Source: Paramesorhizobium deserti
GTDB taxonomy: Bacteria; Pseudomonadota; Alphaproteobacteria; Rhizobiales; Rhizobiaceae
Direction of reading: 5' to 3'
DNA length: 64,000 bases
Assembly (NCBI RefSeq): GCF_001558695.1
Contig: NZ_LNTU01000034.1
Span: forward strand, 248,001-312,000
Below the pieces are notes generated by a model. It made no database searches. It was not told the origin of the DNA and saw only the letters and a program-made list of their open reading frames with translations. The translations under genes were made by a program, and so were the position numbers. Every line of letters begins with the position of its first letter. Position 1 is the stretch's first letter. This document shows, piece after piece, positions 4,681 through 52,735 of the stretch.

Positions 4681-4706
4681 GGAACCAAATGTTCCCATTT
4701 CGCGTT
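4681..4706 (+). promoter_or_regulatory. EcfG-type general-stress promoter of the AI-2E-family gene
   Basis: GGAAC at 4681-4685 and CGTT at 4703-4706 are 17 bases apart, which fits the EcfG/SigT/RpoE2 consensus GGAAC-N16/17-CGTT. Transcription would begin near 4713. That excludes the ATG at 4689 and favours the one at 4731 as start of the downstream gene. Confidence 0.65.
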
Positions 4707-6132: not shown

Positions 6133-6157
6133 GGAACAAAAACAAAAGTTTAGCGTT
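6133..6157 (+). promoter_or_regulatory. EcfG-type promoter of the DUF3309 gene
   Basis: GGAAC at 6133-6137 and CGTT at 6154-6157 are 16 bases apart, an exact match to the general-stress consensus. The site lies 29 bases before the ATG of the small gene at 6187. Confidence 0.75.
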
Positions 6158-6478: not shown

Positions 6479-6504
6479 GGAACCGGACGAGCGGAAAAGC
6501 CGTT
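6479..6504 (+). promoter_or_regulatory. EcfG-type promoter of the DUF883 operon
   Basis: GGAAC at 6479-6483 is followed after 17 bases by CGTT at 6501-6504. The site ends 38 bases before the ATG at 6543 and would drive both the DUF883 gene and the membrane-protein gene behind it. Confidence 0.75.
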
Positions 6505-8327: not shown

Positions 8328-8353
8328 AACGCGCGGGCCTAGTAGAACGTTCC
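8328..8353 (-). promoter_or_regulatory. EcfG-type promoter of the lipid-kinase gene
   Basis: On the minus strand GGAAC (8353-8349) is followed after 17 bases by CGTT (8331-8328). The site lies in the gap between the sensor-kinase stop (8368) and the lipid-kinase start (8274), pointing at the latter. Confidence 0.72.
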
Positions 8354-10006: not shown

Positions 10007-10558
10007 TCAGGCAAATGAACGGGTTGTCGTCGGGGCGGAGGTGGCATCAGGCCCATAATCGGATTCACCGCTGACGCCCAGCAGCTCCTGGAGCCGTGTA
10101 CGAGCGCGGCTGACACGGCTTTTGATGGTGCCCACCGCGCAGCCGCATATTTCCGCTGCCTCCTCATAGGCGAATCCGGACGCTCCGATCAGGATGATCG
10201 CCTCGCGCTGGTCGGCGGGGAGCTGATCGAGCGCCTTGCGGAAATCCTGCAGATCGAGGGCGCCATATTGCGAGGGATGGACGGCAAGCTGGCTGGTGAA
10301 CGTTCCCTCGCTGTCCTGGACCTCACGTCCACGCTTGCGCATCTGGCTGTAGAACTCGTTGCGCAGGATGGTGAAGAGCCACGCCTTTATGTTTGTCCCC
10401 ATCTCGAAGGAATCCTGCTTGGCCCATGCCTTCATGATGGTGTCCTGAACGAGGTCGTCGGCCTTGTCCTGCTGTCCGATCAGCGAAACGGCAAACGCGC
10501 GCAGGCTAGGAAGCGCCGCCAGAAGATCTCTTTTGAACTCGGTCGAACCATCGTTCAC
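10007..10558 (-). CDS. ecfG: General-stress ECF sigma factor EcfG
   Basis: The 183-residue protein has a sigma region 2 (LIGQQDKADDLVQDTIMKAWAKQ, about residues 26-50) and a region 4 helix-turn-helix (GFAYEEAAEICGCAVGTIKSRVSRARTRL, about 127-157). It is of the ECF15 type that directs RNA polymerase to GGAAC-N16/17-CGTT promoters. It starts with GTG at 10558: GAGGGAG lies upstream and a stop closes the frame 15 bases earlier. It follows nepR by 22 bases. In resting cells NepR is expected to bind it, with release when phosphorylated PhyR captures NepR. Confidence 0.93.
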   Translation of the reverse strand: MNDGSTEFKRDLLAALPSLRAFAVSLIGQQDKADDLVQDTIMKAWAKQDSFEMGTNIKAWLFTILRNEFYSQMRKRGREVQDSEGTFTSQLAVHPSQYGALDLQDFRKALDQLPADQREAIILIGASGFAYEEAAEICGCAVGTIKSRVSRARTRLQELLGVSGESDYGPDATSAPTTTRSFA

Positions 10559-10580: not shown

Positions 10581-10817
10581 TCATTGATCATCGGCCCCGG
10601 ACCGGTGGCGCTCCGCCTGATCGAGCTTTTCGAGGAGATCGAGAAACCTGTCGGGGATGGTCTCTTCCTGGATGGAGGTATAGAGAGCCCTCAGTTTCGA
10701 GCCGATCTCGCTATTGGGGCCCAATTCGTCCCGGCCGGATGAGCGAGCCTCGCTTGCCCCGCCATGACCCGCTCTTGGACGAAGATTGGATTTTTCAGTC
10801 ATATTCAACCCAGCCAT
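10581..10817 (-). CDS. nepR: Anti-sigma factor NepR
   Basis: This small protein (78 residues from 10817, or 73 from an ATG at 10802) carries the NepR core IGSKLRALYTSIQEETIPDR followed by FLDLLEKLDQAE, two helices separated by the conserved IP. It has a disordered polar N-terminus. NepR sequesters EcfG and is titrated by phosphorylated PhyR. It is the first gene of a nepR-ecfG pair and is read from its own near-consensus EcfG promoter, divergent from phyR. Neither start has a strong ribosome-binding site. Confidence 0.92.
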   Translation of the reverse strand: MAGLNMTEKSNLRPRAGHGGASEARSSGRDELGPNSEIGSKLRALYTSIQEETIPDRFLDLLEKLDQAERHRSGADDQ

Positions 10818-10893: not shown

Positions 10894-10918
10894 GGAACTT
10901 TTTTTCCCATGTTGCGTT
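10894..10918 (+). promoter_or_regulatory. EcfG-type promoter of phyR
   Basis: GGAAC at 10894-10898 is followed after 16 bases by CGTT at 10915-10918, an exact consensus match. It lies 53 bases upstream of the phyR ATG. Its GGAAC is nine bases from that of the oppositely oriented nepR promoter. Confidence 0.8.
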
Positions 10919-10971: not shown

Positions 10972-11766
10972 ATGTCATTATCGACGCGTATCGCGCCGCA
11001 TCTTCCTTATTTGCGCCGTTATTCTCGTGCCGTCACCGGTTCGCAGACATCCGGCGATGCTTATGTAGCAGCAACCCTCGAAGCGCTTATTGCCGATATC
11101 ACTATTTTTCCGGAAACCTCGTCGGACCGTATCGGTCTTTATCGGCTTTTCTCCGAAATGTTTGAAACCACCACGGTTCGTGTTCCCGAACCGACGTCCG
11201 AATTTGCCTGGGAAGCACATGCCGCCGCCAACCTGTCCACGGTAGCACCCAAGGCGAGACAGGCCTTTCTGCTGGTTTCGGTGGAAGGCTTCAGCGAGCA
11301 GGAGGCGGCTGAAGTGCTCAATGTCGGCGAAGAGGCGTTTTCATCCCTGCTTGCCAACGCCTCGCTCGAAATCTCGCGGCAGGTGGCGACGAGGATCATG
11401 ATTATCGAGGACGAACCCCTGATCGCCATGGATATCGAGCAGATGGTGGAAAGCCTTGGCCACGAGGTGGTTGGCGTGGCGCGCACCCGCCAGGAAGCCA
11501 TCGAACTCTATAAATCCACCAAGCCGCGCATGGTGCTGGCTGATATCCAGCTCGCCGACGGAAGCTCCGGCATCGATGCGGTCAACGACATTCTTCAGAA
11601 GGACACCATTCCGGTGATCTTCATCACCGCTTTCCCGGAAAGACTGCTCACAGGAGAGCGGCCGGAGCCGACATTTCTCGTTACCAAGCCGTTCAATCCG
11701 GAGATGGTGAAGGCGCTGATCAGCCAGGCGCTGTTCTTCGAAGAGAGTTCGAAAGTAGCGGCATGA
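10972..11766 (+). CDS. phyR: General-stress response regulator and anti-anti-sigma factor PhyR
   Basis: The 264-residue protein has an N-terminal sigma-factor-like domain (about residues 1-135, with FLLVSVEGFSEQEAAEVLNV resembling a region 4) and a C-terminal receiver domain (about 141-262). The receiver has the acidic pocket IIEDEPL, the phosphoacceptor Asp 191 in VLADIQLADG, a later VIFITAF and the Lys of LVTKPF. On phosphorylation the sigma-like part binds NepR and frees EcfG. GAAGGGAG precedes the ATG. Confidence 0.95.
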   Translation: MSLSTRIAPHLPYLRRYSRAVTGSQTSGDAYVAATLEALIADITIFPETSSDRIGLYRLFSEMFETTTVRVPEPTSEFAWEAHAAANLSTVAPKARQAFLLVSVEGFSEQEAAEVLNVGEEAFSSLLANASLEISRQVATRIMIIEDEPLIAMDIEQMVESLGHEVVGVARTRQEAIELYKSTKPRMVLADIQLADGSSGIDAVNDILQKDTIPVIFITAFPERLLTGERPEPTFLVTKPFNPEMVKALISQALFFEESSKVAA

Positions 11767-11844: not shown

Positions 11845-11869
11845 GGAACCTATCCTCCCCTTCGGCGTT
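11845..11869 (+). promoter_or_regulatory. EcfG-type promoter of the DUF1328 gene
   Basis: GGAAC at 11845-11849 and CGTT at 11866-11869 are 16 bases apart, an exact match. The site ends 30 bases before the ATG at 11900. Confidence 0.75.
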
Positions 11870-12064: not shown

Positions 12065-12258
12065 ACGGCCGGAAGGGGATAGGGGAAATGATGAAGGAAG
12101 GGCCGCCATGCCACTGATATTGCGGTTCGGGCAAAGGAACCGTAAAACCCATGCTGGATACTGCAGAGTGGCCCGTACTAGCGCGGGCCACCGTGATTTT
12201 ATTCAAATCTGGAAAACTTCATCGGGACTCCCGTGCGTCTCCGGCAACAGTTCAAGAC

Positions 12259-13263
12259 ATGATGAGCCCGATCCCCGCCCAGCCTGACCTGAGAGAGAGC
12301 AGCAGATTGCGTTCTCTGTTGCGGGCTATCCGCAACGGCAATGTCTGCGTACTCTATCAGACCTCCGACTTGGCCTATGTCTGGGCTGAAAATCTGCCGG
12401 ATATATGGGTGGATATGTGGCATGTCGGCCTCTATGACCACGAACTCCTGGAGGCCCCGATGGCGGCCCAGCTTGTTGCCGCCAAGCGTTCGGTTCTGGA
12501 AACGGGCGAACCGCAAAGGATTGAAATCGCGGTGCCGCATGACGATCAGTTCCGCTGGTTCGAGCTTTCGATCGATTGTGACCGCGATGATGACAACGCC
12601 ACGATCGGTGTGGTGACCACGGCGGTGGATGTCACCGAGCTCAAACGCCGCGAGCAGGTTCTCAAGACGTTGCTGCGGGAAGTCAGTCACCGCTCCAAGA
12701 ACCTGCTGGCCATCATCCAGAGCATTGCCATGCAGACCGCCCGCTTCACCGGGACGGTCGACGATTTTCTTCTCAAATTCCGCGGACGCGTGCAGTCGCT
12801 CTCCTACTCCCAGGATCTGGTGACGGATTCCAACTGGCGCGGCGCCCAGTTTCGCGAACTCGTCCGCTCGCAGATGCAGAAATATGTCGATGCCGCCGAC
12901 CCGCGCTTCACCCTGTCGGGGGATGATCCCTACATCTTCCCCGGCGCCGCTCTTCACATCGGCCTTGCGCTGCATGAGCTGATCGTCAATTCAACCTCCT
13001 ATGGCGCGCTGTCGAACGGCCAGGGAACCATTATGATATCCGGCAAACTCGAAAATATCGGGACCGACAAAATGTCCCTGCTGATCAGATGGGATGAGAA
13101 GGTTCCCGGTTCTCTCCAGGGGCAGGACCTCAACGCCCGCTTCGGCAGCGCCGTTCTGGAGCGCATCGTGCCGACCTCGGTCAACGGAACCTCGAACTAC
13201 CATATAGAGCCGGATGGCGTCAGCTATTCGCTGGACGTTCCCCGCTCCCAGTTCGATCTCTGA
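12259..13263 (+). CDS. Cytoplasmic PAS-type HisKA_2/HWE sensor histidine kinase
   Basis: From 12259 the protein has 334 residues and no transmembrane helix. A PAS-like sensor domain (about residues 15-130, ending TTAVDVTELKRREQVL) is followed by the phosphoacceptor stretch REVSHRSKNLLAIIQSIA with His near residue 144, then an ATPase domain with LALHELIVNSTSYGALS and a degenerate glycine-rich end. SHRSKN is typical of the HWE/HisKA_2 kinases that control PhyR. Together with the CHASE3 kinase it flanks the phyR/nepR/ecfG core. The start is uncertain: the frame is open from an ATG at 12151 and neither site has a good ribosome-binding site. No EcfG promoter is seen for it. Confidence 0.85.
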   Translation: MMSPIPAQPDLRESSRLRSLLRAIRNGNVCVLYQTSDLAYVWAENLPDIWVDMWHVGLYDHELLEAPMAAQLVAAKRSVLETGEPQRIEIAVPHDDQFRWFELSIDCDRDDDNATIGVVTTAVDVTELKRREQVLKTLLREVSHRSKNLLAIIQSIAMQTARFTGTVDDFLLKFRGRVQSLSYSQDLVTDSNWRGAQFRELVRSQMQKYVDAADPRFTLSGDDPYIFPGAALHIGLALHELIVNSTSYGALSNGQGTIMISGKLENIGTDKMSLLIRWDEKVPGSLQGQDLNARFGSAVLERIVPTSVNGTSNYHIEPDGVSYSLDVPRSQFDL

Positions 13264-13279
13264 ACACCTCCCGGCCGAT

Positions 13280-13316
13280 AAAAAAGATCGCCACAGGTAT
13301 TCGACCCATGACGATC
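13280..13316 (-). terminator. Intrinsic terminator of the candidate small RNA
   Basis: On the minus strand the 31 bases 13316-13286 fold into a stem of 13 pairs (three G-U) with a 5-base loop CGAAT, followed at once by TTTTTT (13285-13280). It begins 17 bases beyond the convergent kinase stop. Confidence 0.75.
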
Positions 13317-13454
13317 ATTAGGTTTTGCGCACCGTCTATATCAGGACCTGTGCATCCCATGGCGGTACGCTGGTGACCGCAAGCGTTAGGGGAATGACTT
13401 GCGGTCTCGGCACCTGGCATTCTGAGGGGGGCGGGGTCCGCCAGGCACCGGATG
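13280..13454 (-). ncRNA. Candidate EcfG-dependent small RNA with cytosine-rich loops
   Basis: Downstream of an exact EcfG promoter on the minus strand there is no convincing gene but a highly folded stretch. Hairpin 1 (13450-13408) has an 11-pair stem, including two G-U pairs, and a 21-base loop with a run of four and a run of six C. Hairpin 2 (13406-13375) has a perfect 9-pair stem and a 14-base loop containing TTCCCC. A longer stem pairs 13370-13363 with 13334-13327. The last hairpin (13316-13286) has 13 pairs and is followed by six U. The predicted RNA is about 175 bases. It resembles in concept Caulobacter GsrN, a stress-sigma-dependent RNA with a C-rich loop, but homology is not claimed. 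The 5' end is inferred from the promoter. Confidence 0.6.
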
Positions 13455-13461
13455 TCCGCTA

Positions 13462-13486
13462 AACGCAGCCGAAAACGAAAAGTTCC
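13462..13486 (-). promoter_or_regulatory. EcfG-type promoter of the candidate small RNA
   Basis: On the minus strand GGAAC (13486-13482) is followed after 16 bases by CGTT (13465-13462), an exact match. It points away from the cysteine-containing gene and towards the folded stretch between 13454 and 13280. Confidence 0.72.
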
Positions 13487-13582
13487 AAAAAAAGTAAAGT
13501 TCCTTAAACTTTTTACTCCTTCAGAAGCATCTTATACACGCGATTGTGAGTACCTATATTCATGGAGCCTTGGACGATAGAC

Positions 13583-13608
13583 GGAACTATTTTTCAGTTT
13601 TCTCCGTT
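13583..13608 (+). promoter_or_regulatory. EcfG-type promoter of the four-cysteine orphan gene
   Basis: GGAAC at 13583-13587 and CGTT at 13605-13608 are 17 bases apart. The site ends 23 bases before the ATG at 13632. Confidence 0.72.
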
Positions 13609-13631
13609 GATTTCGTCAAAGGAGAGAGGCC

Positions 13632-13970
13632 ATGGAACAGCTGGCTGCGATTATGCTGTTGGTGACATGCTCCAACGATCTGGCCGTGTGCCACGAGCGG
13701 CCGGCGCCAACCGTGTCCTATGAGACGATCACGACATGCCAAACGGAACTGAAACCGGCCATCGAGAATCTCGCGGCTGAAAACACCCGCATCTATGGCA
13801 AATGTGTCGAGGTCGACCCCGAAATCATGGAGCAGGATGTCGCCATTTACTGGGAAATCGATGCAAATGACGAACTGAAAATCACCATTCGTGAGGAGCA
13901 CGAAGGCGAAAACCCTACGATGATGGCCAAAGGCAACCCGGAAACAGGCGCGATTCCCGCCAAGAACTAG
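13632..13970 (+). CDS. Small four-cysteine protein of unknown function, stress-promoter driven
   Basis: The 112-residue product has a short hydrophobic start (MEQLAAIMLLVTCS) and four Cys (residues 13, 20, 36 and 58) in its first half, with an acidic second half. The Cys spacing and the weak N-terminal hydrophobic segment would fit an exported disulphide-bonded protein, but the signal is not clear-cut. AAAGGAGAGAGG lies just before the ATG, and an EcfG promoter lies 23 bases upstream. I do not recognise a family. It converges on the MocA-like gene with 15 bases between stops. Confidence 0.75.
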   Translation: MEQLAAIMLLVTCSNDLAVCHERPAPTVSYETITTCQTELKPAIENLAAENTRIYGKCVEVDPEIMEQDVAIYWEIDANDELKITIREEHEGENPTMMAKGNPETGAIPAKN

Positions 13971-27780: not shown

Positions 27781-29400
27781 TCAGCCGCCGGTATTGCTGT
27801 CACCGCTGCCAGTGCTTCCCCAACTCTTCAGCACCTCATCGAATACCTTGTCGCCGGGCACGCCCTTCTCGAGGGTGATGAGCGCGCGGCGACCCGTCCG
27901 GTAGGTGATCGGAATGTCGATCCATTGCTGGCGACGCATGAGCGTCATATTGGTATCGATGGCAGTGCGCGCATCGTTCAGCCACACAATGAAGATGTTG
28001 TCCGCGATCTTGGTCGGAACGGCGATCAGCGGGCTTCCGGCAGCCTGTTCGGTATCCTTGAACGTCATACGCTGCACATTGTCGATCGCGCCGCCGGGGA
28101 AATTCTCCGGTACGGTGAAGATCATTTCCACCAGATGGCTCGCCGGCAACGATTTATCGGTATTGCGGCGGATCGTCATGCGCAGGCTGATGCCGTTTTC
28201 CGGCACTGTGACCTCACCGCGGATCGCCGGCTCTTCCGGCTCGCCTTCGCCGGGCGAATCCTGCACCACCGACCACACGACCGAACCCTTTTTGGCGGAA
28301 CCCGCCTCCTGGCCGCTACGTTCCTCGTAGAAGAACGCCTGCTGCCCGACGGGGACTGCCGCTTGAGGCGCTGCCGGCGCCGGCGTCTGTGCCCCGTCGC
28401 TGGAGGCGGCCGTCGACGTCCCCTCTCCTATACCTGGCTTGTCGCCGGCCGGACCGGGATCCACCTCGGAACCATCAGGCAACAGGCGCTGTGTCAGTTT
28501 CGGCGGGGATTGCGGCTGCTGGCCGGCGTCGTTCTCCGCGGGCTGCGTGTTCGCAGGCGCCGGTTGGGGCTCCTCTACCGGCTGTTCACCCGTGAGCGGG
28601 GGAGCCGGTTCTTCCGCGGCTTCATCGCCTCCGTTGAACTGGTCCATCACACCAGCCAGATAGGTCTGCAGTTGTTCCTTGTTGACCCAGGCGGCATAGC
28701 CGGCGCCGCACAGCACGATCAGTGAGAGCAGTCCGATGATCAGCCCCTTGCCGACACCGCGGCGTCTTTCGCCGGCTTCGCCATAGGAAGGATCACGCGC
28801 AAAGGCGTCTTCCTCCTCCCGATCCTTGCGCCATTCGTCCTGATCGCTACGGTCCACGGAAAGCACGGGATCGTTTTCATGCAAAGCCTGCGATCGCGAT
28901 GCTCCCGGAGCAGCGGAGGTAAAATCCGGCATCGGATGGGAAGACATCGGGGCAGGCTGCGCCCCCTTCAGAAACTCCTCGAGCGGATCGGACGGCTGCG
29001 GCTCTGTATCGCCGACAGGCTCGGCTTCCGGCACACTCGTTTCTTCCGCGGGAGCGGTTTCCTCTGCAAGATGCTTTTTGACAACGGGCTTTTCTACGGC
29101 AGGCTCCGGCGCGACTACCTTCGGCTCCTGCTTTACTTCAGGCACCTTATCTGCCTCGGGAACCTTGCTTGGCTCCGGCGCTTCACTTACTTGCGGCGCC
29201 GCATATTGATCCTCGACCTCGGCGATGGCGTCTTCCAGCGCCTTGCGCTGGCGATTGGCGACGGCAGCGGGCGCGTTGGCGGAGACGAGCTTCTGCTCGA
29301 TTGTCGCGCGCGCCTTGGCATAGACGCGCTGACGCAATTCGGGCGTTGGATGCGCCTGCGCATCGATGGTCTTTTTCAGTACCGCTGCGAAATCTGCCAT
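27781..29400 (-). CDS. Large membrane-anchored protein of unknown function
   Basis: The 539-residue protein has a helical N-terminal part (residues 1-65, ADFAAVLKKTIDAQAHPTPE), a long Pro/Glu/Ala low-complexity stretch (about 70-190), one transmembrane helix (about 217-237, GLIIGLLSLIVLCGAGYAAW), a second Pro/Gln/Glu-rich linker and a beta-rich C-terminal domain from about residue 345 (GQQAFFYEERSG to the end). The second half would lie in the periplasm. I do not recognise a named family. It lies 129 bases downstream of purA on the same strand. Confidence 0.8.
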   Translation of the reverse strand: MADFAAVLKKTIDAQAHPTPELRQRVYAKARATIEQKLVSANAPAAVANRQRKALEDAIAEVEDQYAAPQVSEAPEPSKVPEADKVPEVKQEPKVVAPEPAVEKPVVKKHLAEETAPAEETSVPEAEPVGDTEPQPSDPLEEFLKGAQPAPMSSHPMPDFTSAAPGASRSQALHENDPVLSVDRSDQDEWRKDREEEDAFARDPSYGEAGERRRGVGKGLIIGLLSLIVLCGAGYAAWVNKEQLQTYLAGVMDQFNGGDEAAEEPAPPLTGEQPVEEPQPAPANTQPAENDAGQQPQSPPKLTQRLLPDGSEVDPGPAGDKPGIGEGTSTAASSDGAQTPAPAAPQAAVPVGQQAFFYEERSGQEAGSAKKGSVVWSVVQDSPGEGEPEEPAIRGEVTVPENGISLRMTIRRNTDKSLPASHLVEMIFTVPENFPGGAIDNVQRMTFKDTEQAAGSPLIAVPTKIADNIFIVWLNDARTAIDTNMTLMRRQQWIDIPITYRTGRRALITLEKGVPGDKVFDEVLKSWGSTGSGDSNTGG

Positions 29401-34310: not shown

Positions 34311-34370
34311 GTTTTCCTATCCTTTCAGATAGCACGCCTCTCGTTGGGGAGAGGTGGCCCGCTGCGGGAA
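34311..34370 (-). ncRNA. serC leader RNA motif
   Basis: On the minus strand directly before serC lie three small hairpins: CCCGCAGCGGG (34368-34358), CCTCTC-CCCAAC-GAGAGG (34354-34337) and CTATC-TGAAAG-GATAG (34332-34317). The last holds most of the ribosome-binding site AAAGGA, eight or so bases before the ATG. A conserved serC leader RNA of alphaproteobacteria is known in this position. I recognise the place and layout, but its consensus was not compared base by base. Confidence 0.55.
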
Positions 34371-52567: not shown

Positions 52568-52700
52568 AAAAAAAGAGCCGCAAAGGCGGCTCTCAGGAGT
52601 TTAACAGGGAGGCGTCAAACAGAGTGGCAAAACCACTCGGTAAGTATCCAGATAAACCGGATATCAAGCATTTAACACGCTTAGGATTAATGAAGAGTTA
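52568..52700 (-). ncRNA. Candidate intergenic small RNA with intrinsic terminator
   Basis: The 438-base gap between rcdA and the OpgC-like gene contains on the minus strand a hairpin GAGTGG-TTTTG-CCACTC (52638-52622), an unpaired CCTCCC (52612-52607) that could pair with ribosome-binding sites, and a terminator AGAGCCGC-CTTT-GCGGCTCT (52593-52574) followed by seven T. The 5' end is unknown; CTTAAC near 52711 is a weak -35 candidate. It may instead be the 3' end of the OpgC-like transcript. Confidence 0.4.
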
Positions 52701-52735
52701 ACTCGGTTAAGGATTTCCGAACCATCGACAACGAA

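Follow-up and report, generated by a model that had tools for sequence, protein, structure and literature searches.

A putative general-stress small RNA with two C-rich loops beside the phyR locus of Paramesorhizobium deserti

The stretch of Paramesorhizobium deserti DNA analysed here (positions 248,001 to 312,000 of contig NZ_LNTU01000034.1, 64,000 nucleotides in all; hereafter, the window) carries on its minus strand, at 13280–13454, what is with a probability of about three in four a self-contained small RNA gene within the general stress response, transcribed by the sigma factor EcfG and bearing C-rich seeds that pair with G-rich mRNA leaders. The RNA is very probably a real regulator, since its folds and both C-rich loops recur at the same place in relatives, and the stress sigma factor probably switches it on. 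An initial annotation of the same sequence had proposed such a gene, with coordinates that proved right; the gene is now delimited by its fold, by blastn matches in relatives and by its recurrence at the same place in related kinase loci.

The promoter that the initial annotation had read on the minus strand is indeed an exact EcfG promoter (GGAAC-N16-CGTT, 13462–13486), from whose spacing transcription would start near 13454. Exact sites of the form GGAAC-N16/17-CGTT occur nine times in the window, against 0.88 expected. The minimum free energy of 13278–13454 on the minus strand (177 nucleotides, nt) is -75.0 kcal/mol, vs. -53.9 +/- 4.02 kcal/mol in 200 shuffled sequences (z -5.25), none of which reaches the native value. 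The predicted fold comprises, all on the minus strand, hairpin H1 (13408–13450, 12 pairs), whose loop holds CCCC and CCCCCC; hairpin H2 (13375–13406, 10 pairs), with the loop CAUUCCCCUAAC, which contains UUCCCCUAAC; stem H3 (13327–13370), with the apical loop GCACAG; and an intrinsic terminator (13280–13316) of 13 pairs followed by UUUUUU. The two C-loop hairpins, H3 and the 13-pair terminator with its six U had all been annotated as such; the pair counts of the first two had to be corrected (12 rather than 11 in H1, and 10 rather than 9 in H2).

The RNA gene lies close to the regulatory genes of the response. A sigma factor gene (10007–10558, minus strand) is assigned as ecfG because it has ECF-type sigma matches (Pfam and NCBIfam, sigma-70 family) and adjoins both nepR, encoding the anti-sigma factor (10581–10817, minus strand; Pfam NepR), and phyR (10972–11766, plus strand; NF006623, Pfam PhyR_sigma2). 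A PAS-HWE histidine kinase gene (12151–13263, plus strand; Pfam HWE_HK and PAS_4) comes after phyR and is convergent with the RNA gene, whose 3′ end is located 16 bases from the kinase gene end, on the opposite strand.

Conservation and covariation in relatives

The RNA is present in all six genomes of the genus that were examined, in five of them by blastn and in the sixth (G003) by a covariance model, R1, built from six core sequences; the coordinates of the G003 match agree with those of locus L013. A search of public records with the kinase protein yielded 14 loci, and an RNA of the same plan, convergent with the kinase gene, is found in 13 of them (the exception being L022). Seven of these loci, L014–L020, belong to four Pseudochrobactrum, two further relatives and one record labelled Bacillus subtilis; the last (L015, JAHREI010000006.1, titled Bacillus subtilis SK6B4) is closely like the Pseudochrobactrum loci and is probably mislabelled or contaminated. 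Twelve of the 14 kinase loci also have phyR; it was not found in L019 (a 3.9-kb contig) or L022. The blastn search against plasmids gave no match to the RNA. Rfam 15, at gathering score, reports nothing at its place in the window and no match in 11 related loci, and a lenient Rfam search of 13100–13640 gave two matches, both at chance level.

An exact promoter is found in the window and L009–L013 (six of six loci), as well as in L021, and the form GAAAC-N16-CGTT in all seven Pseudochrobactrum-type loci (L014–L020); the promoter count is not independent of the way in which the RNAs were delimited, since the delimiting script itself searched for this form, the loci themselves having been chosen by the kinase protein alone. 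The replacement of GGAAC by GAAAC in the -35 element is a departure from the EcfG consensus common to all seven.

An alignment of six cores made with MAFFT and not fitted to any model (A3) has 96.8% of its cells paired and double changes in 7 of 22 pairs, with a covariation score reached by none of 500 shuffles; as a control, partners shifted by 1–3 columns pair in 29–36% of cells. Further pair types in A3 are uninformative, since 88 of 500 shuffles reach the same number. On the full-length six-row alignment, RNAalifold gives 48 pairs, 11 of them with a double change, and of the 12 consensus terminator pairs, 11 are present in all six rows (alignment A2). In the 13-row alignment of the window and 12 loci (A5), whose fitting to the model biases it towards the structure, 96.1% of cells pair, double changes affect 17 of 21 pairs and no shuffle out of 500 reaches any of five measures; H1 shows double changes in 12 of its 12 pairs and H2 in five of nine modelled pairs. 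Across the same 13 rows, CCCCC-UC of loop 1 and CCCC of loop 2 are invariant, while the stems vary. H3 is clear in the window and in L009–L011, altered in L012 and L013, and missing from the Pseudochrobactrum-type loci (as judged from the folds in L017–L020 and from the sequence in L014–L016, which the script had cut before the terminator). The initial annotation had staked its proposal on stems that covary and on a promoter kept in relatives downstream of phyR, and both expectations were borne out.

Model R1 recovers all seven held-out loci of the Pseudochrobactrum type (22–33 bits, E 0.0006 to 0.065), and its sole other match outside the training sequences scores 10.7 bits; locus L005, which this search also covered, comes from the L012 genome and is not a held-out case. 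Over 151 genomes of the GTDB family, the same model matched three genomes, all of the genus, with at most 31 candidates scored per genome in the rows listed, so that distant members could be missed. A further model, R2, found one copy in the window's own genome, among the 150 candidates scored out of 1659.

A wider survey covered the phyR loci of the family and of the order. At E 1e-40 or better, PhyR matches came from 66 of 81 family genomes and 39 of 81 order genomes. Of the loci so found, 80 were taken: 64 lie in the family (63 genomes, one of which contributes two loci), and the remaining 16 come from other families, in which 36 genomes had matched. A first rule required an EcfG site (exact, or with TGTT in place of CGTT) together with a C-loop hairpin and two C4 runs; 13 of the 80 loci satisfied it, always on the minus strand 3′ of phyR. 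A relaxed rule (an EcfG-like site with at most one mismatch and at least two C4-loop hairpins) gave 14 matches in 240 kb at the place and on the strand of the RNA, vs. none in 240 kb of the opposite strand and two in 1.55 Mb elsewhere; the thresholds had been fixed after the kinase-locus sequences were read, and the relaxed form after the first survey result. When tandem C-loop hairpins were sought with no reference to a promoter, the same 14 loci emerged, vs. one match on the opposite strand and four elsewhere (five in about 1.8 Mb). An EcfG-like site stands upstream of each of these 14 (nine exact, five with one mismatch), upstream sites having been left uncounted for the five off-place matches. 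The union of the rules comprises 17 of the 80 loci, all within the family, and L030 resembles an eighteenth by eye.

Relation to described small RNAs

In Rhizobium etli, the small RNA ReC64 is located downstream of phyR-tcrY, with an EcfG1 promoter motif and a start mapped by rapid amplification of cDNA ends, and its reporter expression is lost without ecfG1 (PMC3892343); it was detected on Northern blots as an 88-nt species plus an additional larger band (PMC2881028) and increases under saline shock (PMC4167512). The RNA of the window has in common with ReC64 the place downstream of phyR and a kinase gene and the EcfG-type promoter, and by these two features it is likely the counterpart of ReC64. 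The two differ in size (88 nt reported vs. about 175 nt), the comparison being one of place and description and not of alignment.

The second term of comparison is GsrN of Caulobacter crescentus, in which a C-rich loop base-pairs with G-rich sites on mRNAs, among them the katG leader (PMC5869019). Homologues have been proposed near the general stress response locus in R. etli, S. meliloti, B. abortus and A. radiobacter (Tien et al. 2018, PMC5869019), those of Rhizobiaceae with one C-rich 5′ loop, while BLASTn matches to GsrN are reported in Caulobacteraceae only (PMC5869019). Three of the traits used by Tien et al., who also look for evidence of intergenic transcription, are found here: a near-consensus EcfG-binding site upstream, both in the window and in relatives; closeness to ecfG-nepR-phyR, also in most relatives; and an exposed C-rich loop near the 5′ end, in the predicted fold and with invariant C runs. 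The RNA differs from the GsrN type in having two C-rich loops and H3, vs. the one loop described. An action like that of GsrN would be a reasonable expectation by analogy, and identity with GsrN itself is not claimed.

The role of the two loops as seeds is likewise borrowed from GsrN. According to the mechanism that we propose, stress would free EcfG through the kinase-PhyR-NepR switch encoded beside the RNA gene, and EcfG-RNA polymerase would produce a transcript of about 175 nt that starts at 13454 and ends with the terminator at 13280. H1 and H2 would then hold open two unpaired C-rich seeds, which might pair with G-rich stretches at or near the ribosome-binding sites of mRNAs, altering their translation or stability.

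The alphaproteobacterial cuckoo RNAs, which carry CCUCCUCCC loops, are also small RNAs with C-rich loops and are often linked to stress; the RNA of the window differs from them, as the motif CCUCCUCCC does not occur in it and no Rfam family is found at its place. In S. meliloti, 23 small RNAs with RpoE2-type promoters have been reported (PMC3616915), and none at the phyR locus is identifiable from the available text of PMC3616915 or PMC2573895. No paper on the RNA was found for Phyllobacterium or Paramesorhizobium, the latter name not itself having been searched.

The RNA thus appears to belong with ReC64 and the predicted GsrN-like RNAs, for which a second C-rich loop was not seen described in the available text. 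More tentatively, and with greater doubt than conviction, we suggest that it might represent an unnamed dual-seed family of general-stress small RNAs, present at least in the GTDB family and unlike Caulobacter GsrN, with other targets and with separate loops serving separate sets of mRNAs. Such a family would be defined by an EcfG promoter, at least two C-loop hairpins and a convergent place 3′ of phyR, usually after a kinase gene, and its C loops would persist despite an almost complete turnover of stems and flanks. For the post-transcriptional side of the general stress response in Alphaproteobacteria, the loci described here supply a group of positional orthologues that show covariation; outside Caulobacter, the literature available otherwise offers positional predictions and R. 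etli ReC64. Moreover, the two fixed C loops pinpoint the bases to mutate.

Targets and alternative explanations

A number of observations weigh against an EcfG-transcribed RNA pairing with mRNAs. As for the promoter, overlapping SigA and RpoH promoters, and not EcfG, have been predicted for ReC64 (PMC4167512). Taken by themselves, exact EcfG sites show no enrichment at the place and on the strand of the RNA (25 in 191 kb, vs. 185 in 1.24 Mb for the rest of the family loci), and the opposite strand has more of them (76 in 191 kb), perhaps as these loci are rich in stress genes; what is special to this place and strand is only the combination of an EcfG site with C-loop hairpins. As for distribution, the signature is patchy, being detected by script in 17 of 64 family phyR loci and in none of the 16 loci of other families. 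Rhizobium smilacinae (L021) has the two-loop plan at the same place, yet is matched by neither R1 nor R2, and R2 finds nothing at E 10 in the 82 loci outside the near clade (the 80 phyR loci, L021 and L022); the wider kinship therefore rests on place, promoter and architecture rather than on alignable sequence. Finally, no conserved target was found in the few tests made.

These tests concerned, first of all, katG, which was found in two of the six genus genomes. In one of them (L106) a GGGG run just before the katG start is not present, and in the other (L107, the window's own genome) the start is not resolved and G runs occur further upstream. In a further difference from GsrN, katG was not found in the four other genomes carrying the RNA; it was rejected as a genus-wide common target, and the targets must therefore be sought afresh. 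The complement of loop 1, with at most one mismatch, occurs at 91 places in the six genomes vs. 65 for a backward-read control (16 vs. 5 in the window's own genome, with two genomes below the control), and the exact complement occurs at five places, four of which are the RNA gene itself.

Among the 55 called genes of the window, the target ranking placed first that of an FAD-binding dehydrogenase (60847), whose ATG is preceded by GGAGGGGG; in the case of loop 2, ecfG ranked level with it. The former was rejected as a conserved target, its leader being missing in the other five genomes. The ecfG leader pairs by eye with loop 2 at 12 of 13 positions in the window, two of them G-U (p 0.003 vs. 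shuffled loops), and this pairing, too, was discarded, since none of the 12 other loci scored preserves it (p 0.33 to 0.97). Four rows of the latter test are weak, since in L017 and L018 the script mistook a C run in the 3′ arm for loop 2, and in L013 and L021 the aligned ecfG start is not a start codon. The target tests being negative or weak, the mechanism and the targets are inferred; the same holds for transcription under EcfG, the pairing, the direction of the regulation and any need for Hfq.

Three other explanations were considered. The RNA or its terminator might mainly limit read-through of the kinase mRNA or pair with its 3′ end, as a cis-acting antisense or convergent 3′-end element; its end 16 bases from the kinase gene and the convergent arrangement in the window and in all 13 loci point this way. 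We consider this unlikely, since it leaves unexplained both the C-rich loops that stay fixed while the stems change and the EcfG-type promoter at 13 of 13 loci, and in two survey loci (L031 and L052) the signature lies within 600 bases after phyR, with no kinase relative found between them. An equally improbable option is that the C-rich loops act as a decoy, capturing an RNA-binding protein or G-rich small RNAs instead of mRNAs, as at least two tandem C-rich loops in many loci and the failure to find a conserved mRNA target could suggest; the precedent of Caulobacter GsrN, which has a C-rich loop, depends on the equivalent sigma factor and pairs with the katG mRNA leader (PMC5869019), speaks instead for the pairing of the RNA with mRNAs. 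A short stress-induced coding gene, suggested by a 66-amino-acid (aa) open reading frame (ORF; 13220–13420, minus strand) overlapping the region and by ATG CAC AGG TCC TGA in H3 of four of six loci, is very improbable and was rejected, since the ORF is not full-length in four of five relatives (by eye, 61 aa with an altered C-terminus in L009, fragments only, inside a 53-aa ORF, in L010 and no full-length counterpart in L011–L013), matches no Pfam family and the variation tracks base pairing. The region is, as first annotated, devoid of a credible gene.

Genomic surroundings

On the other side of the RNA, a second exact EcfG site (with N17; 13583–13608, plus strand) precedes an ORF of 112 aa (13632–13970) that has no Pfam or NCBIfam match. 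A matching site recurs beside the RNA in L009, L010, L012 and L013, and not in L011; the 112-aa ORF recurs as well, judged by eye only. The other exact EcfG-type sites of the window are located at 4681–4706, 6133–6157, 6479–6504, 10894–10918, 11845–11869 and 28297–28322 on the plus strand and at 8328–8353 on the minus strand; one of these precedes phyR and another falls in the gap between phyR and the kinase gene.

In nine loci lacking the RNA signature (L041, L043, L072, L078, L103, L088, L089, L090 and L093), an EcfG site on the minus strand, within 3 kb 3′ of phyR, precedes a short ORF starting with MNW(N/D), which we take to be CsbD-like. Elsewhere in the window, Rfam recognises a BjrC1505 small RNA (52568–52708, minus strand, 81 bits) and a serC leader (34312–34364, minus strand, 68.5 bits).
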